Virus record (IMG/VR): IMGVR_UViG_3300042981_000011
Span: 1 to 26,116 of that record
Length of the DNA: 26,116 bases
Origin: a virus
Direction: 5' to 3' (one strand)
The notes below the pieces were generated by a model. The model searched no databases. It was not told where the DNA came from and saw nothing but the letters and a program-made list of their open reading frames with translations. The position numbers and the translations under genes were made by a program. Numbering within the stretch: the first letter of the stretch is position 1; each line of letters opens with the position of its first letter. Of this stretch, positions 310 to 25,583 are shown one piece after another.

Positions 310-1535
310 TTCAACTTCCCTTGGTAAGCCATTAGTGCAGCAATGGCGTTGTTGATGTCGAAGCTATCATACTGCGGAGCAAGTCCAAATTGCAAGGCAG
401 AAGGCTGGTTATTTTGAATCTGATCCTTAAGCAATTTCTGTAGATATGCGTCAGTTACCTTATTAGTAATAGGCTGTCCATACTGGTCCTTCTGGCCTGT
501 ATCATACTTACCAGCAAGAACCGCAGGATCCTCCATAACTGAATTAATCATATCCATAAGTCCACTGGCAGTGCTAGAGTCACCACCATAAATTTCACTC
601 AAATAATTAGACGCTCCAGAGGGTCCATTAGACCCCTTAAAAAGCTGATTTGCTACAGAATCACTAGAACGATCTCCTGCCATTTCTTGCATCTTCAACT
701 GTAGATTAAACATATCCATAAGTCGGTCATATTCAGTTTCTTCTTGCTGTGCTACACGCTGTGCATCTTGCTGCTGTAGTTGAGCAAGCATAGCTTGAAT
801 AGCAGATTCCTTACCAGCCTGTAGACCTGACAGCTTACCTCCGGCTGTTTGGAGATAATCTTCAAGTTGAGATCCAATATCATTAGCAATGTTTACACCA
901 GCAAGACGGGTATTATCTGCTGACTGTCGATTATAACTAACATCAGCATTCTTCATTTCATTAAGAAGCTGAAGAGCTGCTGCCTCATCATTTTGACTCT
1001 GCTGCTGGAAATAAGCCTGATCCTCCATAGCTTGCTGAGAAGCTTCAGGAGCGGCAGCCTGAATACCTAGCTTTCTATAAAGAGCAGCTTGCTGAGCTGC
1101 CTGCTCATTATACTCACCCTGTAGAGCCTGCTGAGTCTGATCATACCTATTCTGTGTTTCCTGGGATGCCTGAGCCATTTGCTGAGTAATTTGAGGCATC
1201 TCAGATGCAATATCCTGAGCTAGAGCATTATACATACCTTTAGCTTCAGATTGATTAGCTTTACCGCGCTTAGTGGTTTGAGCCATTTCAGCCTGAAGCT
1301 GCTTAATCATAGGGTCATATTGAGCACCAGCACTACCCTGAGCCTGCTGCATAAGCTGTTCATATGGAGTTGCAACAACATTGATAGACTGAATTTGCTG
1401 CATAAGTTGCGACAGAGGATCAACTGTACTCGTAATACTAGATTTACCACCTACAGACTGCTTCTTCTCTTTAGCAAGTCGAGCTTGATTCTCTGCCTGT
1501 TGGCGAATAGCATCTGCGAGATCAAAGTCTGCCAT
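306..1535 (-). CDS. Gln/Ala-rich coiled-coil protein, probable internal virion protein
   Basis: 409 residues, very rich in Q, A, M and E, with heptad-like alpha-helical stretches over about residues 10-290 and a less repetitive C-terminus ending in IAALMAYQGKLK. No enzymatic motif is visible. It lies downstream of the connector and nozzle genes, where short-tailed phages often keep internal core or ejection proteins, so an ejected or internal virion role is the best inference. The ATG at 1535 overlaps the upstream stop as TAATG. A tail-fibre-associated or other coiled-coil structural protein is the main alternative. Confidence 0.65.
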   Translation of the reverse strand: MADFDLADAIRQQAENQARLAKEKKQSVGGKSSITSTVDPLSQLMQQIQSINVVATPYEQLMQQAQGSAGAQYDPMIKQLQAEMAQTTKRGKANQSEAKGMYNALAQDIASEMPQITQQMAQASQETQNRYDQTQQALQGEYNEQAAQQAALYRKLGIQAAAPEASQQAMEDQAYFQQQSQNDEAAALQLLNEMKNADVSYNRQSADNTRLAGVNIANDIGSQLEDYLQTAGGKLSGLQAGKESAIQAMLAQLQQQDAQRVAQQEETEYDRLMDMFNLQLKMQEMAGDRSSDSVANQLFKGSNGPSGASNYLSEIYGGDSSTASGLMDMINSVMEDPAVLAGKYDTGQKDQYGQPITNKVTDAYLQKLLKDQIQNNQPSALQFGLAPQYDSFDINNAIAALMAYQGKLK

Positions 1536-1954
1536 TAAATCCCCAATTTAGCGGCTCGTCGCCTAAGGGCGTCTTGTCTAGCTGCATCTTGTTCTAGTTT
1601 AAGCTGACGGAGAAAATTAGTCCTTTGCATACTAAGATCTCCGAGCTTATCACTCTGACCGGTCTGGAGGTTTTTTATCTTTGCATTAAACTCCGTATTG
1701 TAATCCCCGAGAGCTTTAGCAAAAACTCCAGACCTCAAGATACCTCGACCAGCAAAGTCGTTTTGCTGATCTACCCTGTCTTGGGCTCCTTGCCTATTCA
1801 TAGAACGGAGCATCTCAGAGTAATCACGTTTTGTGATACCCGTTTGACGCTTATACTGTGATTCATAATCGGACTTGGATTTATTAAAGTTAGCTAGCTG
1901 TTGCTGATATGTAGTATCTCCAGCAAGCCACTTAGCTGCGGCTGACTTAGCCAT
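1535..1954 (-). CDS. Small basic virion-associated protein
   Basis: 139 residues, basic and mostly helical. It has an RGILRSGVFAKALGDYN segment around residues 70-86 and an arginine-rich tail (RRRAAKLGI). I recall similar GILxSGxxAKxLxDY segments in small actinophage structural proteins, without a defined function. It overlaps the upstream gene by 8 bp and the downstream gene by TAATG, so it is translated within the virion operon. A head-tail or ejection-related role is inferred only from position. Confidence 0.6.
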   Translation of the reverse strand: MAKSAAAKWLAGDTTYQQQLANFNKSKSDYESQYKRQTGITKRDYSEMLRSMNRQGAQDRVDQQNDFAGRGILRSGVFAKALGDYNTEFNAKIKNLQTGQSDKLGDLSMQRTNFLRQLKLEQDAARQDALRRRAAKLGI

Positions 1955-2360
1955 TCAGCCTCCTTCTAATGGCTTCTTTTTGTGCCCGTTGTGCTTTATC
2001 GTAAGCAGATACATCAGCTTTTTTACTAGATTTACGGGTTACTGATCTAGTTCCAATTTGATATGGAATAGCCGCGCCCGCAGAACCAGCACCATAGTCT
2101 GAGTGAACAAAGCCATCACCTGATTTAACATACTGAGATTTGTAAGATTTTCCAGTCTTAGTTTTATTATAAGTGTTTGCGTTACTTTCATACAGTTTTT
2201 CTAGTACGTCATTTTCATTCCTATTAGAGGTAACATTTGGAACCTTTGGAATACCCAAAGAATTATACTTATACGCTCCAGAATTTGGTGCCTGTCTACG
2301 CGTAATTGCAGCGAGTTTGAGCCATTCGGGAGCTTCCTTAAAATTCATAACATTGGCCAT
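1947..2360 (-). CDS. Unknown small basic protein
   Basis: 137 residues, rich in K, N, S and Y. It starts MANVMNFKEAPEWLKLAAITRR and ends with an arginine-rich helix (KAQRAQKEAIRRRLNG). The 91-aa gene just upstream also ends in a basic AILRRM segment. This short basic C-terminal motif (I/L-R-R-R/M) recurs in several small proteins of the operon (also 8384-8581 and 8574-8798), so it may be a shared docking element. The function is not recognised. ATG start coupled to the upstream gene by TAATG. Confidence 0.55.
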   Translation of the reverse strand: MANVMNFKEAPEWLKLAAITRRQAPNSGAYKYNSLGIPKVPNVTSNRNENDVLEKLYESNANTYNKTKTGKSYKSQYVKSGDGFVHSDYGAGSAGAAIPYQIGTRSVTRKSSKKADVSAYDKAQRAQKEAIRRRLNG

Positions 2361-2635
2361 TAACTAAACACCCCCTTTGACCCATACCCCATTACATTAG
2401 AGTTCATTGGATTACCAGTATTTGCACCTTTCATTCTCCGAAGAATTGCATTCTTCTTTGCTTGAGCCCTATTATCCCTTTCATTGTATCCTTGGGGATG
2501 GGCTACAGGGCCAATATTGGGCATTGGACGTCCTCCGCCATAGGTTTTATTACCAGCGGCGTAAGGATTAAATGCCTTCATTCCGGGCGCGGGATTTGGT
2601 ACTTGTTTATTACCAAACAAATCCACAATATTCAT
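2360..2635 (-). CDS. Unknown small Gly/Pro/Asn-rich protein
   Basis: 91 residues, largely low complexity in G, P and N. It begins MNIVDLFGNKQVPNPAPG and carries a RAQAKKNAILRRMKGA segment around residues 57-72. It is probably a flexible, non-enzymatic protein of the virion operon. The stop codon of the nozzle-like gene directly abuts the ATG at 2635. No known family recognised. Confidence 0.55.
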   Translation of the reverse strand: MNIVDLFGNKQVPNPAPGMKAFNPYAAGNKTYGGGRPMPNIGPVAHPQGYNERDNRAQAKKNAILRRMKGANTGNPMNSNVMGYGSKGVFS

Positions 2636-4342
2636 TTAGTTCACCGCCTTAGGAACGATCTGCTTAGAAGCGATAAACGTTGTCAATGAGTACAGGTAAG
2701 CTGGACCATCGGTAGTATTGCCCTTAGTAAGCATGTCTACTTTAAATTGCAAAAGTCTAAATCTAAGAGATTTGGGGAACCTAATAAATTTAACAAATAC
2801 CCCAGAATCACTAGATACCATCTGAGTAGTACTAGGAAGAGTTGTGAGTGGGTATTCCCAGGTATTCAAATCATGCCAATGATATATATGGAGCTGACTC
2901 CATGACACTTTATATGCTACAGAGTAAGGGAACATCGTTCCCGTCACGTCACGGCCAGTATAGCAGTCGATACCCCAATGCATCAATCGCTTAAATCTAT
3001 GGCTAAGCCCAATATCAAACTGTTTTGTAGTCATAGAGAGCTCAATATCTACAGCTACAGGGGTAATGTTACCATTCTCTGTATTTGTTAGTTCATACCT
3101 ATCTTCCATTTTAAAAATCTTAAAATACATATTCCAGTTTTCAGATTCCCCAGGACCATTAGAATCTACAGTGGCATAGAGGGAAGTTCCAGCTACATAT
3201 GTCTGAAATCCTCGAAGAGTATCCGTATTAGTGTTATCGAGCCTAATGATAGGTCCAATATAATTAATGTTGTAATCTGAAGACTCCCAGCGAGTCCAGG
3301 CCCTAAGTCGAAGATGATATACATAAAGACGATTATAGAATCTACATACTAGCCTATCCCCCACCACACTTACCCAATGCGTAAAGTGGTATTTTCTATC
3401 ATCATCCAAAAGACTCTGAGGATAAATTCCATCTGGCATAGTGAGATCATCATCAAACTCAAATGGAATTTTGACGCTAACTCTAACAAAGTCATAGTTG
3501 GACATTTCATACACTTGGTTATACTTCATAACAAATATCGAGTTTTCATAAGTAACTACACAATTTCTACCTGTAGCTCCTACATACTCATTAATTACCT
3601 GTAGAACAGCTTGCGCAGGACCAGTATCGTAAGCCAGAACATAGGTAGCATTATCTTTAAAAATAATAATATTATCCTGATAGACTTCTAGCTGCTGTAC
3701 TGCATCACCATCTCCAGGGTTAATATCAAAAAAGTTAGTTCCTGGCCATCCGGTAAAATCTGCTAGATCACTAAAATATAGCCTAGAGCTGTTGGCTACA
3801 GATCGACGTCCGCTAATCCAAAGTCTGTCCTTATAGATGATGGAAGAGTAACCACTCGGCATACTAGCAATAGCAGTAACAAGACCACCGGCAAGGTCAT
3901 ATTTAACTCCCCCAGCTGAATTAGCCAGATCTGGTACCAAATACAAATCATCAGAATACCGATGTGATGCAGAAAACTCCCCATCCGCTATCTTGGCAAG
4001 AATTCCTGCATTAGGACCATCTACGTAGTAAATATACGCCGCACCATCCACTTCCACGTAATTACTACTTATAATGATAAACCTATTACCCTCATAAGTA
4101 CCAGTACCTATAACCCACTGCCAACTATCTGTATGATCAACTGATGTACTAATAGCTGTAGTTGCATATAGCAATGACCATGGTGGGCGCGATACTAGTG
4201 AACCATCAAGACTTAGATCAAAATTAACACAGTCTACCATCTCGTCATCTGCAATCATTGCAGGATCAGAGTACGTATTAATTCCACCAGCAAAAGGGCC
4301 AATTTCTAGTTCTTGGACTGCAGTATTTCTTGTCTTAGGCAT
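2636..4342 (-). CDS. Tail nozzle / tail-tubular-B-like virion protein
   Basis: 568 residues from the ATG at 4342, which overlaps the connector stop as TAATG. An in-frame TTG at 4360 is possible, but the ATG has a GGGGTGG ribosome site about 11 bases upstream and the usual coupling, so it is preferred. The N-terminus (FAGGINTYSDPAMIADDEMVDC) and the repeated DRLWISG and DNIIIFKDNATYVL type strands resemble podovirus nozzle or stabilisation proteins. These form beta-propeller-like hexameric rings below the connector. Its position directly after the connector gene supports this. The family call is from pattern recognition. Confidence 0.65.
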   Translation of the reverse strand: MPKTRNTAVQELEIGPFAGGINTYSDPAMIADDEMVDCVNFDLSLDGSLVSRPPWSLLYATTAISTSVDHTDSWQWVIGTGTYEGNRFIIISSNYVEVDGAAYIYYVDGPNAGILAKIADGEFSASHRYSDDLYLVPDLANSAGGVKYDLAGGLVTAIASMPSGYSSIIYKDRLWISGRRSVANSSRLYFSDLADFTGWPGTNFFDINPGDGDAVQQLEVYQDNIIIFKDNATYVLAYDTGPAQAVLQVINEYVGATGRNCVVTYENSIFVMKYNQVYEMSNYDFVRVSVKIPFEFDDDLTMPDGIYPQSLLDDDRKYHFTHWVSVVGDRLVCRFYNRLYVYHLRLRAWTRWESSDYNINYIGPIIRLDNTNTDTLRGFQTYVAGTSLYATVDSNGPGESENWNMYFKIFKMEDRYELTNTENGNITPVAVDIELSMTTKQFDIGLSHRFKRLMHWGIDCYTGRDVTGTMFPYSVAYKVSWSQLHIYHWHDLNTWEYPLTTLPSTTQMVSSDSGVFVKFIRFPKSLRFRLLQFKVDMLTKGNTTDGPAYLYSLTTFIASKQIVPKAVN

Positions 4343-5019: not shown

Positions 5020-5452
5020 AATCAATTCCTCCGTGCTTATACGAAGATTTATTACTACGGAGAATTGACGCCGCTAGTTCGTGATCCTCCTGCCTCTTAT
5101 CAAAATCTTCTTTAGCTCTAATAAGTTCTAGAGCTTTATTGTAGTTTTCGATGAATCCAAGTTTATTAGGTGAGTTTCTCTGGTCCGCTTCAAATACTCT
5201 CGCAAGTAGCCGTTCATCCGCCTCTTCAGCCGTGCAGACCAGGTAGGGCGATTGTCCAATAGGGAAGCATACAACACGAAAAGCCAAATCCTTAGATGAA
5301 CGCTTATCCGGCGGGATCCACTGCAATTGCAAGGTGCTGTCATAATCTTGAAGAATTTCATTAATTCTAACCTGCTTCTGACTAACAAAATGACCGTCTA
5401 CAGGGAAATAGAAATTACCATTAAAAAGCTTAGAATCTCGTTCTTTACTCAC
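4988..5452 (-). CDS. Unknown protein of the virion operon
   Basis: 154 residues starting at the GTG at 5452, which overlaps the upstream stop as GTGA. A GTG four codons earlier has no ribosome site. It has two predicted parts: an N-terminal beta-rich half (GNFYFPVDGHFVSQKQV, FRVVCFPIGQSPYLV) and a charged helical C-terminal half from about residue 80 (ADERLLARVFEADQRN). It overlaps the connector gene by 32 bp. It is probably a minor virion or assembly protein; no family recognised. Confidence 0.6.
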   Translation of the reverse strand: MSKERDSKLFNGNFYFPVDGHFVSQKQVRINEILQDYDSTLQLQWIPPDKRSSKDLAFRVVCFPIGQSPYLVCTAEEADERLLARVFEADQRNSPNKLGFIENYNKALELIRAKEDFDKRQEDHELAASILRSNKSSYKHGGIDYERSRRSYSR

Positions 5453-5952
5453 GAACTTTCCCACTTAGTAGCTACAATATCAGCAACATAGATAGAGTCT
5501 GCTGTAGCTGCTGCTCCTCCAACTTCGAGACTAACTGGAGTGGGTGCCCCAAGATTAACTCTACAGGACCATACAGTCGGACCAGCAGAACCAGTAGTAC
5601 CAGGGACATTTAGAGTAGGTGTAGCTACTACAGTATCGCCAATCTTAAACTTAACGTTATCAGTCTCGTTATTTGCTACAGTGGTTCCAAGAATCGCGAT
5701 AGTGCAAGTAACATCCCAAGTACCTGTAGACAAATCAGAAGTTACTGCAATATCTGCCCCAGCCGCTGGTGCAGCTAGTTTACCATTAGCAAATACTGAG
5801 GTAGCTCTACTAGCAATAGGTTCAGTAATAACAACAGTCTGGGCAGTACCTCCACTAGATCCTGTAATTCTAAGTGCGTACTCACCAGCATCAGCATCAA
5901 TAGCTTCAAAGCTATTTTGAAACATAGTGTTGAGTGATTCAGAAGCTGCCAT
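5449..5952 (-). CDS. Beta-rich virion protein, possible head decoration or fibre
   Basis: 167 residues composed almost wholly of G, A, S, T and V with alternating hydrophobic strands (ITGSSGGTAQTVVITEP, WDVTCTIAILGTTV). This composition is typical of immunoglobulin-like or jelly-roll capsid decoration and fibre proteins. The ATG has AGAGG about 7 bases upstream. It is the first gene after the terminator that follows the major capsid gene, so its expression depends on read-through or an internal start. A decoration role is inferred from composition and position. Confidence 0.6.
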   Translation of the reverse strand: MAASESLNTMFQNSFEAIDADAGEYALRITGSSGGTAQTVVITEPIASRATSVFANGKLAAPAAGADIAVTSDLSTGTWDVTCTIAILGTTVANNETDNVKFKIGDTVVATPTLNVPGTTGSAGPTVWSCRVNLGAPTPVSLEVGGAAATADSIYVADIVATKWESS

Positions 5953-5975
5953 AAACCTCTGTTCTTTGTCTACAG

Positions 5976-6016
5976 GGATAAGAAAAGGCGGCTACAGAGA
6001 GATTCCCTGTAGCCGC
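5976..6016 (-). terminator. Rho-independent terminator downstream of the major capsid gene
   Basis: A perfect 10-bp stem pairs 5988-5997 with 6007-6016 around a 9-base loop. On the minus strand the stem is followed by CTTTTCTTAT. The motif CTGTAG/CTACAG sits in both arms. It lies 16 bases past the capsid stop, where partial termination would set the high capsid to tail-protein ratio. Confidence 0.8.
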
Positions 6017-6031: not shown

Positions 6032-7237
6032 TTAGCTCTCGGTAATGTCATCCAGAAGACCGTGTGAATTACGGCGATGAGTACCGAGCTGGCAGTACTT
6101 ATAGAGAGTAGCATCATAAGCGTCATATCCAATAACGCGCTGCCACTTAGACCCATCGCGATCCATAAAGGACCAATCACTCTCGCGATAGATCTTCATT
6201 TCCTTCTCGTTAAGGAAATACATACGGTTAGGCTGGCAATCCACATCAGAGATGAGTGGAATTTCACCGTTATCCGTAGTGAAGGCCAGACCCTTAAATC
6301 CGCCTTCAAAATCCTTAGTATCGCAGTAACGACGCTGCTGAACGAGGAGGTTAAAGTAACTACGACGAACACCGAGAGTGGTGAAAATAGCCGTAGTATT
6401 ACCACCATTGGTATAAATATCATCCACCATCGTAATCATAAGAGATTCCGAAAGTGCACGATTAACACCTGCGTTGTCGTTCATAACAGACTTCCACACC
6501 GGCTCAGTGGAAGGATCAATACCAAAGAGAGAAGTGGAGTCATCAACAATCTGCTCAAGACCGATAATCTCACGGTTAAGAGAACCATGACGAACAACAA
6601 TATCGGTATTAGCAGTAGCAGTACCGGGAGCTACATCAAGCTCAATAGACGTGTCCTTAGTAACGTCTACAATAACGGCACCGGTAGGGCTAGATGCACC
6701 GGTCTTATTAGTAGTGCCCGTAGCATCATAGATGTCGACAACCATGCCGACTTCCATATACTGGGTATTAGTCATCGGAACAGTAACCGTGGTGTTAGCA
6801 CCAGTTACAACACCGAGAACACCTACAGAAGTTCCATAAATCTGACGGTTAAAGTCCTTAGCCAAATCTCGCTGAATACCGTTAACTTCCTCATCCAGAA
6901 CAGATGCGAAAGCCTGGAAATTAGACTGAGCGAGTTCCATAGACTGTCCGCTAAGACGAACAGCTCCATATTCGTAGGCTAGACTAACCTGCGCACGTGC
7001 ATAACCCTGATTACGTGCAGTCGGCAGTTCTTCCATTTCAAGTCGAGCACCGATACCGTGGTTACGCTTAACGTGGATCGGAAATACAACGTACTTTCCG
7101 CCTACTTCAGAAGTAACACCTTCTGAAGTCTGCTCAATACGCTTAGAAGTCTTCAAGTGGTTCTGAAGCTGTTCACGAATACGCGGCTCGTAAATTTCCT
7201 TCAGAATATTAGTTGCCGTTGTGAGCGTAGCGCCCAT
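6032..7237 (-). CDS. Major capsid protein
   Basis: 401 residues with the plan of HK97-fold major capsid proteins. There is an N-terminal helical segment (EIYEPRIREQLQNHLKTSKRIEQ) and an E-loop/P-domain region with conserved glycines and a YARAQVSLAYEYGAVRLSG stretch at about 75-95. A beta-rich insertion rich in T and V follows at about 140-210. The C-terminal A-domain-like part includes GDxxL-free strands such as NGEIPLISDVDC and RMYFLNEKEMKIY. The scaffold gene directly precedes it, and a strong SD (GGAGG) lies upstream of the ATG. It is followed by the terminator at 5976-6016. Only one CTGTAG-type site falls in this gene. Confidence 0.88.
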   Translation of the reverse strand: MGATLTTATNILKEIYEPRIREQLQNHLKTSKRIEQTSEGVTSEVGGKYVVFPIHVKRNHGIGARLEMEELPTARNQGYARAQVSLAYEYGAVRLSGQSMELAQSNFQAFASVLDEEVNGIQRDLAKDFNRQIYGTSVGVLGVVTGANTTVTVPMTNTQYMEVGMVVDIYDATGTTNKTGASSPTGAVIVDVTKDTSIELDVAPGTATANTDIVVRHGSLNREIIGLEQIVDDSTSLFGIDPSTEPVWKSVMNDNAGVNRALSESLMITMVDDIYTNGGNTTAIFTTLGVRRSYFNLLVQQRRYCDTKDFEGGFKGLAFTTDNGEIPLISDVDCQPNRMYFLNEKEMKIYRESDWSFMDRDGSKWQRVIGYDAYDATLYKYCQLGTHRRNSHGLLDDITES

Positions 7238-12128: not shown

Positions 12129-12415
12129 CAGTCCCCATAAGTAAACAGTGGGTTATCGCCTTCACTAGAAGAACTGCTATCGCCAGATTCTACAAGATTA
12201 ACTACATCATGCACATTAGAGTGAACACTACCGGAAGGCGTTTCAGAAGGATAACGAACTTCTCGACGAGCAATAAGAGGCTCACGATTCTGAGCCCTAG
12301 CAGACCTATCTTCAGCTTCCTGAAGTTCTACTTCATCAAGAAAACGATTAGTAACTGCTTCTCCGAGAGTAGGGTTAGAAAAGAGTTCCGGGTGAGACTT
12401 AGGAAGTGTAGTCAT
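12128..12415 (-). CDS. Unknown 95-residue acidic protein
   Basis: 95 residues beginning MTTLPKSHPELFSNPTLGEA, with a charged helix around 24-50 (RFLDEVELQEAEDRSARAQN) and a serine-rich, acidic C-terminus (ESGDSSSSSEGDNP). The ATG overlaps the large terminase stop as TAATG, so the two are translationally linked. It may be a small packaging accessory; no family recognised. Confidence 0.55.
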   Translation of the reverse strand: MTTLPKSHPELFSNPTLGEAVTNRFLDEVELQEAEDRSARAQNREPLIARREVRYPSETPSGSVHSNVHDVVNLVESGDSSSSSEGDNPLFTYGD

Positions 12416-13950
12416 TAGTAATCCTCCTCATTAAGTACTACACGAGTCCACTTAGTTTTTTCTGCCATAAGATTTTCCGGATTTAGTCTTGGATCAAAAG
12501 AAGGACCCGGAAGTTTAGCGGCATTACCACCAATCTTAGGCAGTTCAACTTTAGCTTGAGGCAGTTCTGCAGAGGCTTTCAACGTAGGCAGGAATGAAAA
12601 ACAATACCTAGCAGAATCACAAGCGTGGTCATCCTTCTTATGAATCTGGTCATGAGGATTATTTTCCGACTGCTGTTTAGTTGATGCCCAAGTTTTCCAT
12701 CTCAACCGCCCCATCTCTCTAATAAGGTTAGCACAGTTCGCCGTGATAAGCCAGTTCGGTTTACCATCAGCGGCATTATCCAAATACTGATTAACTTTAG
12801 CTACACCAGTTATTACGTCATTGTTGCCAAGAGCCATACCAATACCACGCATAGCATATTCAGTCTGGATAGAAGTTCCTGTAACTGGATTACGCTGTGC
12901 TAGCGCGGGATCACATACCCTAATATCCGGCTGCCTACGCCACATCTTTTCACGAGTCTTAATTACTTCTGCATGGTACTCAATAGTACCTTCTGCTTCA
13001 TAATGCTCAGAGAAGGTGATGATTCGTCCATCCCTGTCTACAGCATGCCACAGCACGGCTGTAGGGTTGTTGAAGCCATGGTCTAGGGACATGTACCACT
13101 TGTAATTGGCAGATCTTAGCTCTGTAGGGTCGATAGGCGGAATAACATGCGTGTCAATACTAAACTTCTTATAAACTCGTCCACCCTTACGAGTGAATTT
13201 ACCGTGCCCACGAACCTTTAGTTCATCCTCGTCAAGGCTTCCCAAATATGTATCTACTTCTTCTTCATCCAGATACGGATTTTCTGTCATATCGACTTCT
13301 ACGACAGCAATGCCAGGATCTCCAGCAATACCAGGATCATAAATCTCAAGCTCAATCCACTCCAAACCTTCAACAGGCGTTAGAGTAAACCATTCTCGAC
13401 CTTTACGGTCGATAAGACGAACTTTATTCTCTTTTCGAATATCCTCAGGGGGTTCCTCGTCATAGTGAACAAAGTCGCGACTAGTACCAGCGAACTTATC
13501 AAGATCCTGGTCATAAGACATTAGCTCAACAAATGATTCATTTTCAAAATTAAGAGTACGTTCCGCAGCATCATAGGCAGTATACCAGGATCCACCTCTA
13601 AGTTGAGATGGAGGTACCCACTGCTTAAGCTGAGGAATAATAATTTTAGATACACCATTAAGAAAGTCAACAGAAATAATACGTCCGGCTACAGGGCGAT
13701 TAGGTGTCTCAAGATACGGATGTCTATGCGTTAGCCACCAAATATCTTCTACAATGCCTGCTGTAGTCTTGCCTGATCTGTTACCACCAATATAAAGACG
13801 TACACGCTTATCAGATGAATGAAATAGCTCTTGCTTTGAATGCGGAGTGTAGGAGTTAATATCGGGGGCATAAGCTACTCTACTTAGCCCATCAGTAAGC
13901 TCCTTAAGAGCTTCCTCTACACTGCTGATTGGTCTAACTTTTTTAGCCAC
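12415..13950 (-). CDS. Terminase large subunit
   Basis: 511 residues. The packaging ATPase domain has Walker A GGNRSGKT (55-62), Walker B-like VHYDEE (161-166) and a TLTPVEG coupling motif (about 189-195). The C-terminal RNase H-like nuclease shows MSLDHGF (D290), RVCDPAL (D347) and KKDDHACDSARYC (about 439-450) as likely metal-binding acidic positions. It cuts and pumps phage DNA through the portal. The GTG start at 13950 overlaps the fibre-like gene upstream by 8 bp and lacks a strong ribosome site. The candidate small subunit is five to six genes upstream, with fibres and the endolysin in between. Confidence 0.92.
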   Translation of the reverse strand: MAKKVRPISSVEEALKELTDGLSRVAYAPDINSYTPHSKQELFHSSDKRVRLYIGGNRSGKTTAGIVEDIWWLTHRHPYLETPNRPVAGRIISVDFLNGVSKIIIPQLKQWVPPSQLRGGSWYTAYDAAERTLNFENESFVELMSYDQDLDKFAGTSRDFVHYDEEPPEDIRKENKVRLIDRKGREWFTLTPVEGLEWIELEIYDPGIAGDPGIAVVEVDMTENPYLDEEEVDTYLGSLDEDELKVRGHGKFTRKGGRVYKKFSIDTHVIPPIDPTELRSANYKWYMSLDHGFNNPTAVLWHAVDRDGRIITFSEHYEAEGTIEYHAEVIKTREKMWRRQPDIRVCDPALAQRNPVTGTSIQTEYAMRGIGMALGNNDVITGVAKVNQYLDNAADGKPNWLITANCANLIREMGRLRWKTWASTKQQSENNPHDQIHKKDDHACDSARYCFSFLPTLKASAELPQAKVELPKIGGNAAKLPGPSFDPRLNPENLMAEKTKWTRVVLNEEDY

Positions 13951-19990: not shown

Positions 19991-20527
19991 GAAGGCAGTT
20001 CGTTGATAACTCGATAGCAGGCACGCAGGGCAGGCACTAATGACGTGCGTATTCCCATTCGCAGTAGCGCGGTAGTCAAAATAATGACTACGGAATATCA
20101 CTAGGTATTAGACCGTTTGTCCGTCTGCTATAAGAGCCCGTTATTTTTTAACTCAACAGTGTGGCCGAAGCTAAAGGCAATCATTAGGTGTTCTGGCCTC
20201 CCCTTATTCCCGGGAGTTAGACGCGGCAGCTTAATGAACGCCAATAAAGGCACTTGTCGCGATAGGCAAACTCTAGCCATTTAGTCGTGACGCGCGTTAA
20301 TAGTCTCTTACGGAGCATCAATAATTAACAGCGTTTAACGTGAGAGCACATTTAACAAATTGACTATTAATGCAAGGTCATGGAATTTCTTTATGGGATT
20401 TCATGACTACTGGGAAAGGATGATCCCTTACACATTCATCCAAATTCACTGCCATAGGTGTGCTCTGTCTACCTTGACTTTGTGATACCATGGCAGTCCA
20501 GTCAGAACACAACAGAGTGAGGTCATC
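19991..20527 (+). other. Gene-free region: long leader or non-coding RNA
   Basis: I see no convincing coding frame here: stops are frequent on the plus strand and no frame has an SD. It contains the inverted repeat at 20072-20091, a T-run at 20145-20150, and an imperfect inverted repeat around 20378-20406. The last part must hold the promoter of the strongly biased 292-aa gene, but no clean -35/-10 pair is visible (TTGACT at 20474 lacks a good -10). No CTGTAG motif occurs in it. It could also be an origin or an attachment region. Confidence 0.5.
20072..20091. repeat. Perfect 7-bp inverted repeat
   Basis: GTAGTCA (20072-20078) and TGACTAC (20085-20091) around AAATAA. This could be an operator or a small RNA hairpin within the gene-free region. 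Confidence 0.55.
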
Positions 20528-21406
20528 ATGGCTGAGAACACGACTCCCGACACTCTCAAGTCTGAATCTGCCATTAAGGCGGATGAGACTAAGGGCCAGG
20601 AAGTCAAGGCGCCTACTCCTGAAGAGCTTGCAAAGGCTTTTTCGGAACTGCCTAACGAGTTTCAGCAGGCTATTAGGGACCTTAACAAGGACATCGACAC
20701 GCATAACAGCAAGGTCGACTCCGTTAAGGCTTCTGAAGCCAAGGATCCGAAGCTTATTAAGGCTGAGATCTATGAGCAGAACCCGAACAACAATAAGAAG
20801 CTCAAGGCCCTTTATGACCAGGAAATGAAGCTTCAGGCTCAAATCGAAAAGCTTCGTGCTGAGGCATACAAGGTTATCGACGACGACGGTCTTATGCCTC
20901 AGGAACTCACTGAAGAGCAGATTGAGAAGCTCAAGGGTGAGATTACTGAGTCCACTAAGAACCTTCGTGAAGGTGTATCGGCTCTTCTTAAGTTTGAAGA
21001 GATGATGCCTATCTTCGCTGGAAAGTTTAGCCCCCACATTACCGAGATTAAGACTCGGCGTGGTGCTGCAAAGACTAGCTCTAGTGCCGGTACTACTGGC
21101 GAAGTTATGCGCCCTCGGTTTAAGAAGATTGAGGTTAACGGCGTAACCGAAGATACCCAGGGCAATAAGGTTTATGTCCTTAAGGACGGCGAACCTAAGT
21201 ACACGTTTACTTCCGTGTCTGCCTACCTTAAGAAGCAGCACAAGGGTATTAAGTGGACTGCAAAGGACCTTATCCACGCTTACCTCGGAGGTAAGGCTTC
21301 CCAGGATGAGGTGCCTGAGATTCACGAATTTGTTATGCCTCACACTTACAAGGACGCTAACGGTAATGAGCACACCGTTAATTACACTGTGAAGGCGTAC
21401 CGTTAA
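20528..21406 (+). CDS. Probably highly expressed unknown protein, coiled coil plus basic C-terminal domain
   Basis: 292 residues. The N-terminus is acidic and disordered (1-35). A helical middle has clear coiled-coil character at about 88-116 (LKALYDQEMKLQAQIEKLRA) and 128-160. A S/T/G linker lies at 180-192. The C-terminal domain (about 197-292) is beta-rich with a basic helix (VSAYLKKQHKGIKWTAKDLI then HAYLGGK, 230-256) that could contact nucleic acid. Codon choice is narrow (AAG, CTT, GAG, GTT), unlike its neighbours, which suggests high expression. It has its own terminator and a GAGG site before the ATG. No family recognised. Confidence 0.75.
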   Translation: MAENTTPDTLKSESAIKADETKGQEVKAPTPEELAKAFSELPNEFQQAIRDLNKDIDTHNSKVDSVKASEAKDPKLIKAEIYEQNPNNNKKLKALYDQEMKLQAQIEKLRAEAYKVIDDDGLMPQELTEEQIEKLKGEITESTKNLREGVSALLKFEEMMPIFAGKFSPHITEIKTRRGAAKTSSSAGTTGEVMRPRFKKIEVNGVTEDTQGNKVYVLKDGEPKYTFTSVSAYLKKQHKGIKWTAKDLIHAYLGGKASQDEVPEIHEFVMPHTYKDANGNEHTVNYTVKAYR

Positions 21407-21420
21407 GTGAACACTGATTA

Positions 21421-21454: not shown

Positions 21455-21480
21455 CATGTCCACTTAAAGGAGGTCACGTA

Positions 21481-21708: not shown

Positions 21709-21719
21709 GAGGTCACGTT

Positions 21720-21926: not shown

Positions 21927-21933
21927 GCGAATT

Positions 21934-21970: not shown

Positions 21971-22061
21971 CATGTCTATTGAAAGGTTAGTTAGTCTAAC
22001 TTTAATTGATGGATCAGGGTGCCGCGTGGAAATTCTGGTCGGTCTTTTTAGGAGTCTGGTT

Positions 22062-22190: not shown

Positions 22191-22221
22191 AGCTAAGCGT
22201 CCTAATCTCGATACCATTAGA

Positions 22222-22234
22222 CGTAAGACTTACG
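22222..22234. repeat. Near-perfect palindrome, operator-like
   Basis: CGTAAG-A-CTTACG. Its short, compact symmetry fits a dimeric DNA-binding site. The HTH gene at 18661 and the winged-helix gene at 22648 are both candidate binders. Confidence 0.55.
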
Positions 22235-22349
22235 ACTTGCGTCCTCCAATTAGACGAGTTTAGTTAACGTGAACTCGCTTCGCTCGTTCGCCTACAGGGA
22301 GAGTTAACATTAAGTGAACCGTTAATTATCCACTCCATTAATAATCTCC

Positions 22350-22378
22350 CTGTTTGACCCTTTCAATGGGTTAAACAG
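22350..22378 (+). other. 11-bp stem-loop
   Basis: CTGTTTGACCC (22350-22360) pairs with GGGTTAAACAG (22368-22378) through one G.U pair, loop TTTCAAT. No U-tract follows, so it is not an obvious terminator. Confidence 0.65.
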
Positions 22379-22393
22379 ACAAATCCAGGCATT

Positions 22394-22447
22394 TAGCCCA
22401 TTTGCCTACAGGAGGGGTATACCTCCCAATGTAGCGCAGATGGGCTA
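22394..22447 (+). other. Long rod-like hairpin carrying the CTACAG motif
   Basis: TAGCCCAT/ATGGGCTA (8 bp), TGC/GCA, CTACA/TGTAG and GGAGG/CCTCC stack in order around the loop GGTATA, with only small bulges. The stem buries both the CTACAG motif and a GGAGG sequence. Confidence 0.7.
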
Positions 22448-22477
22448 TTTGGTATATTTCATTTCTTTTAACTTATA

Positions 22478-22532
22478 GCCGACAGACAGAGTAAGTAGTA
22501 CGACTTCGTCTAAACTACACTACTCTGTCGGC
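22478..22532 (+). other. Large hairpin
   Basis: GCCGACAGA (22478-22486) is the exact complement of TCTGTCGGC (22524-22532). A register shift gives GACAGAGTA with TACTCTGTC. Inside, GTAGT/ACTAC and GAC-TTC-GTC extend it. CCAGGT/ACCTGG at 22535-22563 forms a further stem just downstream. Confidence 0.65.
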
Positions 22533-22647
22533 GACCAGGTGTTTTTCAATTGACCTGACCTGGGAGTTTGTGCTTTACTCTATGGTGTTGGTACCTAACT
22601 CGATTTCTCGTTTTACCCATTGGCCCCGGGGTGGGAGAAGGTAATAT

Positions 22648-23256
22648 ATGGCTAGACCACGTGATAACGAATACCGCACAGCTATTCTTAGTGCTCTAGA
22701 CACTAAGTTTGCTTGCAGTATCAACGATGTTAATGAATACCTAAAGGAGCATAATAAGTTTAAATCGTATGCCTCAACGCGACGGATGCTACTAAAGATG
22801 GTATCCGAGGGCGTGATTAACATTCACCCCAAGAGGCACGATAAGAACGCAATGTATTTCATGAAGGGCACTGTTAGTCCCTTCGTTAAAATGGTCACCT
22901 TCAATGGTGATGTGGTTAACCTCAGTGAGTTTATTAATACTACCTACGATCTGGAGTTGAATACATTCCTTAACGAGTCCGTCGCGACCGGTGTTAAACA
23001 ACTTATGTTTGACTACCTTGTAGCTGCTAAGCCTGAGTTGTTTGATGGCGTTCGTGATATTCCCGACAGACGAGAGATCAGAAAGAAGCTCGAAAGAACC
23101 CTTCAATATACTCAGACATTGCATAGGTTCATTAAGTCTTTCCTAGACGCTGACATCCATTCTCCTGTAGGGAAACGAAATATTGCGCGTGAACTAGAGA
23201 CTGTATGTACCGATAAGCAGGTGGAAATTATCGTGAGGGAAATGTGGAAGAAGTAA
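22648..23256 (+). CDS. Winged-helix-like DNA-binding protein
   Basis: 202 residues. The first 75 read as a winged helix: helix 1 EYRTAILSALDTKF (8-21), helix 2 INDVNEYLKEHN (25-36), recognition helix ASTRRMLLKMVSEG (42-55) and a wing VINIHPKRHDKNAMYFM (56-72). The C-terminal part is helical and charged (PDRREIRKKLERTLQYTQTL). The ATG has GGGAGAAGG upstream, after the long hairpin-rich leader. It is probably a transcription or replication regulator. The same topology appears in the protein at 25584. Confidence 0.65.
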   Translation: MARPRDNEYRTAILSALDTKFACSINDVNEYLKEHNKFKSYASTRRMLLKMVSEGVINIHPKRHDKNAMYFMKGTVSPFVKMVTFNGDVVNLSEFINTTYDLELNTFLNESVATGVKQLMFDYLVAAKPELFDGVRDIPDRREIRKKLERTLQYTQTLHRFIKSFLDADIHSPVGKRNIARELETVCTDKQVEIIVREMWKK

Positions 23257-23426
23257 ACGAAGAAACACATATGCTTCGTCGTGGTAGAAGTGAAACTTAT
23301 TGCGGCCTACGAGTAGGTTCATTTAAGGGTGCTCTTAATCAAGACCCTACATGCCCTACCTGTAGCGAAGGACTTAAGCAGGCTAAGAAGCATTTCGAAT
23401 CTCCGTTTAAGCCTAGGGATAAGTAA
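23244..23426 (+). CDS. Small zinc-finger-like protein
   Basis: 60 residues from a GTG with GAGGGA upstream, overlapping the winged-helix stop by 13 bp. Residues H9, C20 and the CPTC pair near 37-40 (HMLRRGRSETYCGL, DPTCPTCSEGL) could form one zinc site. Comparable HxLxxGRxxxCGL...CxxC mini-proteins are common, as I recall, in actinobacteria and their phages, with unknown targets. The stop overlaps the next ATG as TAATG. Confidence 0.6.
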   Translation: MEEVNEETHMLRRGRSETYCGLRVGSFKGALNQDPTCPTCSEGLKQAKKHFESPFKPRDK

Positions 23427-23512
23427 TGGCTAACACTTACGTAAAGTATCGCGATCTCATTGGGCCAGACTTTAAGGGCTTGATTGATATCGCCATGTCT
23501 CTCTCTCTGTAG
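23426..23512 (+). CDS. 28-residue ORF ending in the CTGTAG motif
   Basis: ATG overlapping the upstream stop as TAATG. The peptide begins MANTYVKYRDLIGPDFKGLI and ends MSLSL. The final CTG-TAG is a motif copy, so the motif supplies the stop. Another 28-residue ORF starts 2 bases later. Translation is supported by coupling only. Confidence 0.45.
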   Translation: MANTYVKYRDLIGPDFKGLIDIAMSLSL

Positions 23513-23514
23513 AG

Positions 23515-23601
23515 ATGATGTATCGCGCCGATGATGAGATGGTTATTAGCCTCTCTAGTGGCAATATTCTTGTAGTTTCTGTAGCCGAGGAGGACAAGTA
23601 A
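23515..23601 (+). CDS. 28-residue ORF, possible partner of the preceding one
   Basis: The peptide begins MMYRADDEMVISLSSGNILV and ends VSVAEEDK. It starts 2 bases after the previous stop with only AGAG as ribosome site, and its stop overlaps the next ATG as TAATG. If a frameshift joined the two short ORFs, the fusion would be a 57-residue protein similar in size to its neighbours; this needs checking for sequencing or real frameshift. Confidence 0.45.
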   Translation: MMYRADDEMVISLSSGNILVVSVAEEDK

Positions 23602-23774
23602 TGAAGTTTGAATATAGGCTCATTAATCCCAATAATGTAGATATTAGTGATCCTAGTGTAGCTTACGATACTGAAGTATTTAGTACTGAAGCACAGGGTA
23701 AGGATCATCTGGTCATTACACTTAAGGTTCTTCCTGTAGAAAATTCTTCTGATTCCGAGAGGACGGGTCTCTAA
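23601..23774 (+). CDS. Unknown 57-residue protein
   Basis: The ATG has GAGGAGGACAAGTA upstream, a strong SD, and overlaps the previous stop as TAATG. Its own stop overlaps the next ATG in the same way. Mostly beta-like (KFEYRLINPNNVDISDP, HLVITLKVLPVE). No family recognised. Confidence 0.6.
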   Translation: MKFEYRLINPNNVDISDPSVAYDTEVFSTEAQGKDHLVITLKVLPVENSSDSERTGL

Positions 23775-24124
23775 TGTTCCGAGTCAAGTTCCTTAATATG
23801 GTAGAACAGACCAAGGATGAGTTTAATTACCCTAATCTCTGGGATGCACTACAGGTGTGTAAGGAGACTAACATTGGTCCAGGCTATATTCATTCACCGG
23901 CTATGAGTAATAAGCAGTTCGATCGCGAACTAATGACTCTCCTTACCCAGGGTTTTATTTACATTGGACCTAAGCTTAATCAGTATTCAGAGGGGAGTAT
24001 TATGCTCATGCTTCTCTCTGTAGCCGAAGATGGTACCGAGCGGCCTGTATATAACGCATTGCCGATACCGTTTCAGGCAAGTCCTGATAGTGTAACACTA
24101 TCTCGGATTCATCAGAATCACTAA
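23774..24124 (+). CDS. Unknown 116-residue protein
   Basis: 116 residues, TAATG-coupled. Helical N-terminal half (MVEQTKDEFNYPNLWDALQV, MSNKQFDRELMTLLTQGFIY) followed by a beta stretch (GSIMLMLLSVAEDGTERPVY). The QFDRELMTLLTQGFIYIG part has the feel of a winged-helix second half, but the evidence is thin. It is the last gene before the first tRNA-like element. Confidence 0.6.
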   Translation: MFRVKFLNMVEQTKDEFNYPNLWDALQVCKETNIGPGYIHSPAMSNKQFDRELMTLLTQGFIYIGPKLNQYSEGSIMLMLLSVAEDGTERPVYNALPIPFQASPDSVTLSRIHQNH

Positions 24125-24130
24125 GGAGAA

Positions 24131-24161
24131 TTAACTGATTCCTCCTGTAGGGATCAGTTAA
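24131..24161 (+). other. Perfect 9-bp stem-loop with the CTGTAG motif in its loop
   Basis: TTAACTGAT (24131-24139) and ATCAGTTAA (24153-24161) enclose TCCTCCTGTAGGG. The stem ends exactly one base before the 5' acceptor strand of the tRNA-like element. It could be a processing signal or part of one larger fold. Confidence 0.75.
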
Positions 24162-24255
24162 GGGCCCGCCTCGGTGGAATTAACCGTATGACAGTTATAT
24201 ACCCCCTGTAGCTGACTGTCTTAGTTAATTGAGAGTTCGATTCTCTCCGGGCCTA
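24162..24255 (+). tRNA. tRNA-like element 1 with oversized anticodon loop
   Basis: 5' acceptor GGGCCCG (24162-24168) pairs with CGGGCCT (24248-24254), 7 bp with one G.U. The T arm is GAGAG-TTCGATT-CTCTC (24231-24247). A D-like arm has CGG/CCG around a loop with GG. In place of a normal anticodon arm, GACAGT (24190-24195) pairs with ACTGTC (24215-24220) around a 19-base loop that contains a CTGTAG motif. No standard 5-bp stem with 7-base loop can be drawn, and CCA is not encoded. It could be a tRNA with a small loop insertion, a degenerate tRNA, or a tRNA mimic. Confidence 0.5.
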
Positions 24256-24282
24256 CGTAAGTTCCCTGTAGGAGGTCTAGTT

Positions 24283-24576
24283 ATGCTGCTCTCGGATATC
24301 TTTAACATCGGTCTTAAGCACGAAGGTAAGGTTAGGGATTTTAAGTTTAAGCAGTGCGAGCATCTTGACGCCATCGAAGAAGTACCGTTTATTAAGCGGT
24401 GTACGAAATCTAAGGCTATTGGACTTAGGGTCTGTCTTAGCCACGCTTTTACGGTGACTTTTGATCACGTGGGTATCGGTGAGCGTACTAATTACTTCGA
24501 TACCCAATATGAGGCCGAGTACTTCAGGACTCGCGAAGTTCCTTCAACTTGGACTGAAACTAACTATAAGGTATAG
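24283..24576 (+). CDS. Unknown 97-residue protein
   Basis: 97 residues from the ATG at 24283, preceded by CTGTAGGAGGTCTAGTT, the same motif-plus-SD cassette seen before 21720. A longer frame from 24229 would start inside the tRNA-like element and is rejected. Basic N-terminal half (LKHEGKVRDFKFKQCEHLDA then PFIKRCTKSKAIGLRVC), beta-like centre (HAFTVTFDHVGIGERTNYFD). Function unknown. Confidence 0.65.
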   Translation: MLLSDIFNIGLKHEGKVRDFKFKQCEHLDAIEEVPFIKRCTKSKAIGLRVCLSHAFTVTFDHVGIGERTNYFDTQYEAEYFRTREVPSTWTETNYKV

Positions 24577-24578
24577 TT

Positions 24579-24770
24579 ATGGCAATTAACATTACTAAGA
24601 AGTCTCCGTATTCTAAGATTAGACGTGATGACTTGCTGGTATCTCATAAAACTCTTCTTGAACTAGTAGAAGATCTCCATATTAAGCAACTCATCGTAGA
24701 CAGCGAGGGCTCAGTATTCATCTATTACAAGGATACTGAGTACGGACCGATTCAAGTAATAGGAGATTAG
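24579..24770 (+). CDS. Unknown 63-residue protein
   Basis: 63 residues starting two bases after the preceding stop, with AAGG as weak ribosome site. Predicted helix (SHKTLLELVEDLHIKQLIV) then strands (GSVFIYYKDTEYGPIQVIG). No family recognised. It is followed at once by a zinc-ribbon peptide gene. Confidence 0.6.
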   Translation: MAINITKKSPYSKIRRDDLLVSHKTLLELVEDLHIKQLIVDSEGSVFIYYKDTEYGPIQVIGD

Positions 24771-24773
24771 ACT

Positions 24774-24875
24774 ATGGCGTGTCCCTCTTGTGGCAACTCT
24801 AATACATGGCGTATTTCGGTTGAAGAAGGTCAACCTCAGTATCGATGTATGGACTGTGGTGCCACATTCGGATAA
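24774..24875 (+). CDS. 33-residue zinc-ribbon peptide
   Basis: The ATG has AGGAG 8 bases upstream. The peptide is almost entirely a zinc ribbon: CPSCG at 3-7, a WRISVEEGQPQYR hairpin, CMDCG at 25-29, then ATFG. Four cysteines in CxxC pairs should bind one zinc. Such minimal ribbons can act as protein adaptors or nucleic-acid binders. It directly precedes the second hairpin plus tRNA-like element. Confidence 0.75.
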   Translation: MACPSCGNSNTWRISVEEGQPQYRCMDCGATFG

Positions 24876-24887
24876 TTAGTTAACTGC

Positions 24888-24928
24888 CATCACGCTCGTG
24901 ACTAGAAATAATGGTTACGGGCGTGGTG
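24888..24928 (+). other. 15-bp stem-loop upstream of tRNA-like element 2
   Basis: 24888-24902 pairs with 24914-24928 over all 15 positions (three G.U pairs) around TAGAAATAATG. It ends three bases before the 5' acceptor strand of the tRNA-like element, mirroring the arrangement at 24131-24161. Confidence 0.75.
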
Positions 24929-24931
24929 AAA

Positions 24932-25021
24932 GGTCCCGCATGCGGTAGTAGTGAAAACGAGATTTTCTTGATACGTGCAATCTCAAGTAGCTATTTTCGG
25001 GTTCGACTCCCGACGGGGCCA
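24932..25021 (+). tRNA. tRNA-like element 2 with enlarged anticodon loop
   Basis: 5' acceptor GGTCCCG (24932-24938) pairs with CGGGGCC (25014-25020), with A as discriminator. The T arm is TCGGG-TTCGACT-CCCGA (24997-25013), fully canonical. The middle has a perfect 6-bp stem GAGATT/AATCTC (24959-24964 with 24979-24984) around a 14-base loop, and a poor D arm. As in element 1 no 7-base anticodon loop with U33 can be drawn, and the total length is that of a class II tRNA. CCA is not encoded. Confidence 0.5.
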
Positions 25022-25023
25022 CT

Positions 25024-25043
25024 GAATGACTAATCGGTCATTC
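25024..25043 (+). other. 7-bp hairpin before a CTGTAG motif
   Basis: GAATGAC (25024-25030) pairs with GTCATTC (25037-25043), loop TAATCG. It lies three bases past the tRNA-like element, with CTGTAG at 25047 and the SD of the next gene following. Confidence 0.6.
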
Positions 25044-25070
25044 TCCCTGTAGAGATGAAAGAGGTTAGTT

Positions 25071-25322
25071 GTGTCCGTTAACGTTGAGCTTCACAAGGTC
25101 GTTGTTATCTTTAATGGAGCTCACTACGGCTTTATCTCCCTCGCTAAGGCTGTCAGTTTTATTGAGCAGCAGTACATTAGTGAGGACTACAGCAAGGTTT
25201 ACTCCGAGATTTCTAGTGCTATTAACGCTGGCTCTAATGAGGACGTAGACCTTATCATTACCGACATTGACTCCTATGTTGACATTTACCTTGACGACTC
25301 CGAGGATGAGGATGGCGAGTAA
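25071..25322 (+). CDS. Unknown 83-residue acidic protein
   Basis: 83 residues from a GTG with GAGG about 6 bases upstream. The N-terminal strand pair (VNVELHKVVVIFNGAHYGFI) leads to a helix (LAKAVSFIEQQYISEDYSKV) and an acidic end (DDSEDEDGE). The acidic tail encodes GAGGATGAGG, which doubles as ribosome site of the overlapping next gene. Function unknown. Confidence 0.65.
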   Translation: MSVNVELHKVVVIFNGAHYGFISLAKAVSFIEQQYISEDYSKVYSEISSAINAGSNEDVDLIITDIDSYVDIYLDDSEDEDGE

Positions 25323-25440
25323 GCAGGAACTAATTAAGAAGGCTAAGGACGAGATTAATGACCTACAGAAGAAACACCACACGGTCATTGATCTCTATGT
25401 AGTTAAGCGCTGGCTCGAAGGAATCGAGAGAGCTAAGTAA
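25312..25440 (+). CDS. 42-residue basic helical peptide
   Basis: The ATG at 25312 overlaps the previous gene by 11 bp with GAGG directly upstream. The peptide is one or two amphipathic helices (MASKQELIKKAKDEINDLQK then KHHTVIDLYVVKRWLEGIER). No family recognised. It is the last gene before the structured gap at 25449-25529. Confidence 0.6.
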   Translation: MASKQELIKKAKDEINDLQKKHHTVIDLYVVKRWLEGIERAK

Positions 25441-25448
25441 TTCAGGAC

Positions 25449-25529
25449 GGGCCGACTACCGGGTAACAACTGATATTAGTGCGCTAGAGGTAGATTGGGC
25501 GCGGTGACGGCAGCTGATATCAGTGGCCC
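25449..25529 (+). other. Structured intergenic element, possible non-coding RNA
   Basis: GGGCC (25449-25453) pairs with GGCCC (25525-25529). ACTGATAT (25469-25476) pairs with ATATCAGT (25517-25524), stacked next to the outer stem. GCGC (25481-25484) can pair with GCGC (25499-25502). The layout recalls the acceptor-closed elements at 24162 and 24932 but has no T arm. A CTGTAG motif follows at 25535. The 143-base gap holds no gene I can support. Confidence 0.55.
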
Positions 25530-25583
25530 TTTCCCTGTAGGAATCTTTCGTTTGGTTCCGAAGATGATCTTGAAAATTATATA

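Follow-up and report, generated by a model that had tools for sequence, protein, structure and literature searches.

Why should a phage carry one short, asymmetric word about a hundred times in a fragment of its genome, on both strands and mostly inside genes? The question is raised by the IMG/VR virus record IMGVR_UViG_3300042981_000011, of which we analysed positions 1 to 26,116 (the window, 26,116 nucleotides). The word is CTGTAG, which reads CTACAG where it lies on the other strand. A sequence-only reading of the window had put its copy number at about 105 by hand, and had named repressor stoperators, modification sites, packaging or recombination signals and nucleoid-protein sites as possible functions. 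The exact count is indeed 105. None of the functions on that list is favoured; the reading that fits best was not among them.

We propose that the phage's own primase, a predicted archaeo-eukaryotic primase (AEP) of the PrimPol type fused to a RepA-like hexameric helicase, uses the 105 CTGTAG sites for template recognition and priming, and we put the probability of this at about 0.8. The word is in great excess, its sequence changes between related phages, and its presence tracks that of the AEP domain. The protein that carries this domain, as modelled, has an AEP-like and a RepA-like fold. Here we set out the evidence for the word and for its putative reader, weigh the alternatives, and compare the system with primases whose recognition sequences have been described.

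RESULTS

Excess of the word in the window

The window holds 52 copies of CTGTAG and 53 of CTACAG. Under a third-order Markov model 30.0 would be expected (z 13.7); CTGTAG ranks first among all hexamers. Read backwards, as a control, the word occurs only 7 times, and its one-mismatch variants have 2-41 copies each. The massive over-representation of a dispersed, asymmetric word in both orientations, as first read from the letters, is borne out by these counts.

Among 43 hand-picked genes of the window, 88 of the 105 sites are wholly coding (3.80/kb) and the remaining 17 correspond to 5.70/kb; gene overlaps turn the 88 coding sites into 89 in-gene counts. Synonymous shuffling of codons within genes (n = 1000) gave a mean of 29.8 copies (standard deviation 4.5, maximum 43) against the real 89. 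Codon preference, already judged insufficient by the sequence-only reading, and chance under the Markov model are both ruled out as the cause. That reading had also placed the word in all reading frames. Several frames do occur, but their use is uneven: 69 of the 89 lie in one frame (42 as xCT GTA Gxx, 27 as xCT ACA Gxx), 14 read CTA CAG and 6 lie otherwise. The preferred frame requires Ala, Ser, Thr, Pro, Val, Gly, Asp or Glu, and is probably the one that carries the word at the lowest amino-acid cost.

In enriched phages the motif exceeds six bases, with a C/Y-rich 5' side and often a C on the 3' side. The flanks in the window looked half-palindromic; a hairpin or palindrome was rejected as its basis, because related motifs such as CCCCTGTCGCG are not palindromic.

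Variation and turnover of the word in relatives

With the window's terminase as query, 44 loci were retrieved. CTGTAG ranks first or second among hexamers in L001-L005, L007-L010, L041 and L044, and 19th in the 5-kb L006. There is no excess in L011-L021, L024, L036 and L040, whose terminases are 64-71% identical and whose GC content is mostly about 50%, or in the 4.5-kb L042. The hexamer again ranks 1-4 in relatives further removed, among them L022 and L025-L030. The expectation that relatives would share the enrichment thus holds for many of them and fails for some. One that shares it is G001, a 46.6-kb IMG/VR record with 97.8% mean identity to the window over aligned pieces covering 25,269 of its 26,116 bases, in which the word occurs 168 times against 48.5 expected.

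The word itself differs between phages. Longer, clade-specific forms, assembled from overlapping octamers in whole records, are CCCTGTAG in the window clade, CCCCTGTAGCA in G015, CTGTAGCG in G014 and G012, and CCCCTGTCGCG in G013, where CTGTCGCG occurs 48 times against 1.1 expected. Arthrobacter phage Casserole, a cultured relative, is enriched in CTGTGG (95 versus 25.8 expected), Cellulosimicrobium phage DS1 in CTGTCG (116 versus 41), Manatee Spring podovirus in CTGTAG (98 versus 40) and Microbacterium phage Shocker in CTGTAAAG (45 versus 1.8) and CCCTGTCG (27 versus 3.8). Shocker (L085) also has a second strong word beside CTGTAAAG, namely TACCCTAA (15 versus 0.0).

How one word replaces another can be followed between G015 and G013, which share 72% nucleotide identity in their aligned parts. 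At 44 aligned CTGTAG sites of G015, G013 has 12 CTGTCG, 6 CTGAAG and 1 CTGTAG; conversely, at 24 CTGTCG sites of G013, G015 has 12 CTGTAG and 1 CTGTCG. A sizeable share of sites therefore keep their place while their fifth base changes in concert, which points to a trans-acting reader whose specificity has shifted. Single positions are not strongly conserved: three relatives retain 0.28-0.40 of the window's CTGTAG sites, the mean hexamer scoring 0.16-0.21, and there are hexamers that rank above CTGTAG. This modest retention indicates that sites turn over while their density stays.

A replication module that tracks the word

The genes of G001 were compared between motif-bearing and motif-less relatives, with G013 and Casserole also used as queries. 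All 11 motif-bearing phages that have the replication module carry a family A polymerase and its exonuclease gene; none of 4 full-length records without the motif does. Motif-bearing phages further have a neighbouring helicase open reading frame (ORF) of about 550-650 residues with an N-terminal domain, the AEP domain proposed here; G006, G009, G010 and G011 have the C-terminal helicase alone (366-397 residues). The motif-bearing phages themselves supplied the sequences for a profile of this N-terminal domain, which matches all 11 motif-bearing relatives in which replication genes are present. It finds no match in G006, G007, G008, G009, G010, G011, G018 and G019, all of which keep the helicase part. 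These eight AEP-less records have 8-15 copies of the word and 4-32 of the reversed control, and none of them has the family A polymerase. Phages of this group, in which a helicase was found with neither AEP domain nor polymerase, may rely on the host replisome. Two records, G005 and G017, in which neither the AEP nor the helicase part was detected, are uninformative for presence or absence.

The predicted AEP-helicase protein

In the N-terminal domain the stretches WxDFD, HxYW and LRP..N.K are largely conserved, and D106, P123, W139, W169, R176 and N182 are invariant in 14 sequences. By our own assignment these stretches would be the AEP catalytic motifs A, B and C. An AlphaFold2 model of the G001 protein was built from 22 sequences (mean pLDDT 81.3, pTM 0.48). 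Its residues 18-209 match 6zp9, the PrimPol AEP domain of cyanophage S-2L (Z 20.1, root-mean-square deviation 2.4, 175 residues), which is the only AEP row among the 50 matches listed. Residues 320-596 match RepA of RSF1010 (Z 23.6, root-mean-square deviation 2.8, 239 residues). The best 50 rows from Foldseek are helicases and RecA/Rad51-like ATPases only, with no AEP. Between the two folds the model has helices at 228-234, 240-247, 256-269, 274-288 and 297-311. We take the modelled protein for a fusion of an AEP and a RepA-like helicase, the five helices at 228-311 lying between them.

The word in other AEP phages

The AEP domain profile also matches the replication proteins of six phages from other groups. 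GTGTGG is the top hexamer in Serratia phage Serbin (62 versus 22.6 expected), Pseudomonas phage PMBT14 (74 versus 21.7), Gordonia phage Cozz (71 versus 24.9) and Microbacterium phage Triscuit (47 versus 13.5, counted on 47.5 of 67.5 kb); in Arthrobacter phage Amigo it is GTGTGC (92 versus 28.9).

A broader set came from three scans of IMG/VR with primase-helicase alignments, which gave 163 AEP loci; the 139 of at least 9 kb were used and 24 shorter ones dropped, and at least 7 of the 139 are records already examined above. A word of the [CG]TGTNG family, which comprises 8 of the 2080 hexamers, is among the top three in 91 of the 139 loci and first in 61. The reversed family reaches the top three in 10 of 139. 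When the 64 possible [CG]xyzNG cores are compared, TGT leads with 91 of 139 and the next best has 23. With the primases clustered at 50% identity, 25 of 41 clusters have a top-three word. A scan of genome contigs for the primase gave one locus.

Among control loci, 5 of 48 have a top-three word, in all five cases CTGTAG: none of 12 AEP-less relatives (L013 and L024, both below 9 kb, and the short L042 being excluded, and L018 and L019 giving identical figures), 4 of 26 relatives of T7 gp4 (26 of 27 loci used), none of 6 Toprim-primase relatives and 1 of 4 other named phages. On a tree of the primase part of the proteins the word switches identity 11 times among 79 labelled rows; in 300 shuffles of the labels the mean was 40.5 and the minimum 35. 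For this tree 26 of the 139 primases were dropped at 80% identity, and labels were given only to loci with a top-three word and to five named phages (79 of 120 rows).

Other words in excess were met along the way. GGATCC has 10-14 copies against 0.4-0.6 expected in L244, L245 and L246, low-GC AEP loci with no top-three [CG]TGTNG word. The first 50 kb of Arthrobacter phage PrincessTrina (L089) hold GAGCTC 24 times (3.1 expected) and CCTGTT 64 times (17.2 expected), with no AEP-profile match in that stretch.

Spacing and strand use

Both strands are used, the most uneven phage being Serbin (44 and 18). Five of 17 phages (Triscuit, Amigo, Cozz, PMBT14 and Casserole) have, on one strand or both, sites whose spacing is more even than that of all 2000 random placements. 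Of the 46 pairs of neighbouring sites in Triscuit, 36 switch strand; none of 274 control hexamers alternates at that rate. A strand switch following the direction of replication was considered and rejected: no clear switch appears, the smallest values of the segment test being 0.036 and 0.044 (G001 and G012; 17 tests).

Features of the window and of its neighbourhood

The window is a fragment of a Jasmine-like phage, whose host is probably an actinobacterium. Its terminase shares 42.8% identity with that of Arthrobacter phages Casserole and Jasmine, and G001 encodes a WhiB-type factor (a label that rests on its annotated relative in Casserole), which points to such a host. Positions of the sites and genes are collected in Table 1. 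Site 6007, in the cluster next to the major head gene, is the extended form TTCCCTGTAGCC, and site 24266 lies inside the listed ORF 24229-24576.

Table 1. Sites of the word and genes referred to in the text (window coordinates; single numbers are first-base positions)
Feature	Position	Strand	Remark
CTGTAG site set	438..25540	both	105 sites, exact count
CTGTAG	438 699 774 819 1119 3571 3599 4156 4519 4866 5502 5724 6007 7727 8153 8675 9178 9430 9878 9895 10798 10819 11123 11158 11651 13059 13122 13761 14212 14270 14317 14730 14790 14853 15632 15963 16456 17442 17997 18590 21703 23165 23360 23507 23579 23734 24018 24145 24206 24266 25047 25535	+	
CTACAG	653 1451 2503 2917 3049 3055 3166 3796 4587 5398 5561 5628 5676 5970 5992 6823 8363 8506 8524 8651 8959 9016 10096 11581 11617 11918 12110 13038 13689 14095 14437 14751 14820 14835 15339 15701 15791 16537 17148 17573 18231 18323 18536 18765 18900 18926 19326 21587 22292 22406 23849 25187 25363	-	
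Head-to-tail hexamer pair	3049..3060	-	From site positions
Three-site cluster	5970..6012	both	Between ORF 5449-5952 and major head gene
Three same-strand sites (24145, 24206, 24266)	24145..24271	+	C-rich bases 5' of core
Major head protein	6032..7237	-	Context
Terminase large subunit	12415..13950	-	Query that brought in the compared relatives
Gene at the place of Casserole Lsr2 (read from gene order), gene-55 family	20528..21406	+	Considered as reader and set aside

The window clade has a second, palindromic excess, TCGCGA, ATCGCG and TATCGCGA, the last with 11 copies against 1.1 expected in G001, 6 against 0.3 in G020 and 7 against 0.6 in G021. AGGATC/GATCCT is dispersed in the window (40 versus 15.6 expected) and is high in G021 too. 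Near the WhiB gene lies gene 15 (L045:12667-13239), which encodes 190 amino acids and whose family occurs in 8 of the 11 motif-bearing phages holding the module; it may contain a CGNR-like zinc finger (E 0.0096, below the cut-off).

DISCUSSION

How would an AEP primase use such sites? Aligned on GT, the main words read [CG]T/GTN[GC], the slash marking the alignment: CT/GTAG, CT/GTCG, CT/GTGG, GT/GTGG and GT/GTGC. Shocker's CT/GTAAAG fits this pattern less well. The predicted helical bundle of the primase would bind GTNG on the single-stranded template 5'-...CT/GTAG-3', and the first dinucleotide would be laid down opposite the two bases just 5' of GTNG, T and then C, for a primer beginning 5'-AG; over the whole set of words primers would begin 5'-AG or 5'-AC. 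The C-rich 5' flank is present in CTGTAG phages and weaker in the other word groups; continued over this flank, the primers of CTGTAG phages would be G-rich. The phage's family A polymerase would then extend them. With sites on both strands every few hundred bases, a self-sufficient replisome could start lagging-strand fragments anywhere, and what selection maintains would be site density, not the individual positions. Such selection fits the turnover of sites described above.

Somewhat less firmly, we think it probable that the AEP primase of such a phage imposes its own code on the whole genome. The word would be enriched several-fold on both strands, mostly within genes and at a cost in codon choice; drift in the enzyme's specificity (from CTGTAG to CTGTCG, CTGTGG and GTGTGG) would rewrite the sites together; loss of the AEP domain and polymerase would lead to loss of the word; and the specificity could be read from sequence for many such phages.

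Several observations weigh against the primase-site reading. The word follows the AEP domain in presence and absence, with exceptions. Streptomyces phage JustBecause (L111; partial profile match) lacks a GTGTGG- or GTGTGC-type word in the 40 of 184 kb counted. Cyanophage S-2L (L310; AEP by annotation), the source of the matching PrimPol structure, and the Segniliparus locus L309 (AEP-type by a partial tblastn match) are also without the word, as are 16 of the 41 primase clusters for a top-three word, several of which have overlapping words. Several of the most distant terminase relatives (L031, L034, L038, L039 and L043) show the word weakly or not at all, and CTGTAG is mildly raised in the AEP-less phages T7 (31 versus 15.9) and Circum (38 versus 19.8). 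In the strictest evenness test 12 of the 17 phages fail, and the sites of the window and G001 are not evenly spaced, being denser and leaning to clumping. Because the AEP-less records also lack the polymerase and are probably one clade, the contrast they provide is probably a single evolutionary event. The primase gene lies outside the window, about 8.6 kb past its right end, as read from G001, and its presence in the window's own phage is predicted from that record. By itself, moreover, the sequence evidence for an AEP is weak. Of the G001 protein Pfam matched only the ATPase half, with no hit from an AEP model; among the relatives, Prim-Pol or RepB_primase passes the cut-off in Cozz and stays below it in Casserole, Shocker and the Manatee phage. 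In a profile search of the PDB, 6zp9 scored E 0.063, beside an unrelated chain (0.12) and RepB' (about 0.2). The case for the fold comes from the matches of the AlphaFold2 model.

The word might instead be read by another protein of the replication module (the Zn-ribbon product of gene 15, an SSB-like protein, a RuvC-like resolvase or the polymerase), with the AEP a fellow traveller. In the tested motif-less records gene 15 and the family A polymerase, along with its exonuclease gene, are missing together with the AEP domain, which speaks for this, and yet we consider it unlikely. No copy of gene 15 turned up in the motif-bearing Manatee phage, in Shocker or in the partial G016, and the SSB-like (our own label), WhiB and RuvC families are also present in motif-less phages; by presence and absence all four candidates are rejected or weakened as readers. 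The polymerase is weakened as a reader: 27 of 31 Toprim-primase loci with a family A polymerase are without the motif, and conversely 18 motif-bearing AEP loci show no family A polymerase within the locus, where flanks are limited. The motif also recurs in AEP phages of Serratia, Pseudomonas and Gordonia. A repressor or nucleoid protein is a still less probable reader, despite the resemblance to mycobacteriophage stoperators, which are dispersed asymmetric sites that vary between related phages: here most sites lie wholly in genes and in both orientations, and gene comparisons with G001, G013 and Casserole as queries turned up no recognised repressor or nucleoid gene exclusive to motif-bearing phages. 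The gene-55 family member at the Lsr2 place (Table 1) was set aside as reader, as its family occurs in both groups, including 4 tested motif-less records. In the main text of PMC5513430 the words 'motif' and 'stoperator' have no occurrences.

Two further explanations fare worse. Chi is classically an asymmetric, octamer-like word in excess, and these phages carry a gene taken for a RecB-like nuclease from the Casserole annotation and gene order, so the sites could be recombination or nuclease-protection signals read by a phage RecB/Cas4-like nuclease or a host exonuclease. We regard this as very improbable, since the RecB-like gene (G001 20400-21395) is also present in four motif-less records, phages of the same host differ in word excess, and the word tracks AEP clades across different hosts. 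Least probable of all is a host-wide oligonucleotide signature of the HIP1-like kind, or a codon or mutational bias. The mildly raised counts in T7 and Circum would suit it; the codon shuffle and the differences in word between primase clades do not. Nor is the excess shared within one host: Casserole infects Arthrobacter sp. ATCC 21022, and in the first 50 kb of four further phages of that host CTGTGG is not over-represented (Gordon 13 versus 16 expected, Circum 10 versus 11, Amigo 28 versus 25, PrincessTrina 40 versus 35). On these counts a host-driven signature is rejected.

If the primase-site reading is true, word counts on genomes can reveal the template code for a large class of phage primases. 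The pairs of enzyme and site that vary together (CTGTAG, CTGTCG, CTGTGG, GTGTGG and GTGTGC) would form a natural series in which to find specificity residues, and lagging-strand priming would be seen to shape codon choice across a genome. A primase recognition site is a known kind of element; what appears to be new is that it is enriched across the genome and diversifies along with the enzyme. We found no earlier report of such enrichment in the open-access papers searched, a coverage that leaves out most subscription papers and all bioRxiv preprints.

Among known systems, the stoperators of mycobacteriophage L5 are alike in being many dispersed, asymmetric sites whose sequence varies between relatives. 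They are about 13 bp long, number a few dozen and are bound by the repressor; the window has more than 100 sites, which lie mostly in genes and track the primase domain. T7 gp4 has a Toprim-type primase, unlike the AEP here. It too is a phage primase-helicase with sequence-specific genomic priming sites, (G/T)2GTC (PMC12839067). In our scan of T7, no (G/T)2GTC word made the list of the six highest words at lengths 5 to 8.

Closer parallels come from the AEP primases. Human PrimPol (hPrimPol), BcMCM and TthPrimPol use a CCTG code, and ORF904 of plasmid pRN1 requires GTG (PMC8718748). In ORF904 the helical-bundle domain binds GTG and the first dinucleotide is made opposite the two bases 5' of it, starting with A opposite T; a template containing TTCTGTGCA yields the primer aGAAGAAG (PMC8076596). 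This is a plasmid enzyme with a trinucleotide code, and the part of PMC8076596 cited here does not describe an enrichment of its sites. The NrS-1 primase-polymerase, NrSPol, is an AEP fused to a helicase, as proposed here, with a short, asymmetric, GT-containing word. It reads GTG, best as GTGA or GTGG, together with TTTGGTTA, and initiates just 5' of the word, mainly at the first base upstream (PMC8718748). Its GTGG is the 3' part of the CTGTGG and GTGTGG found here. In NrS-1 GTG sites far outnumber TTTGGTTA sites, and a genome-wide excess is not described in the part of that paper cited (PMC8718748). In the phages analysed here, by contrast, the word is six bases or longer, is strongly enriched, and differs from one primase clade to the next.

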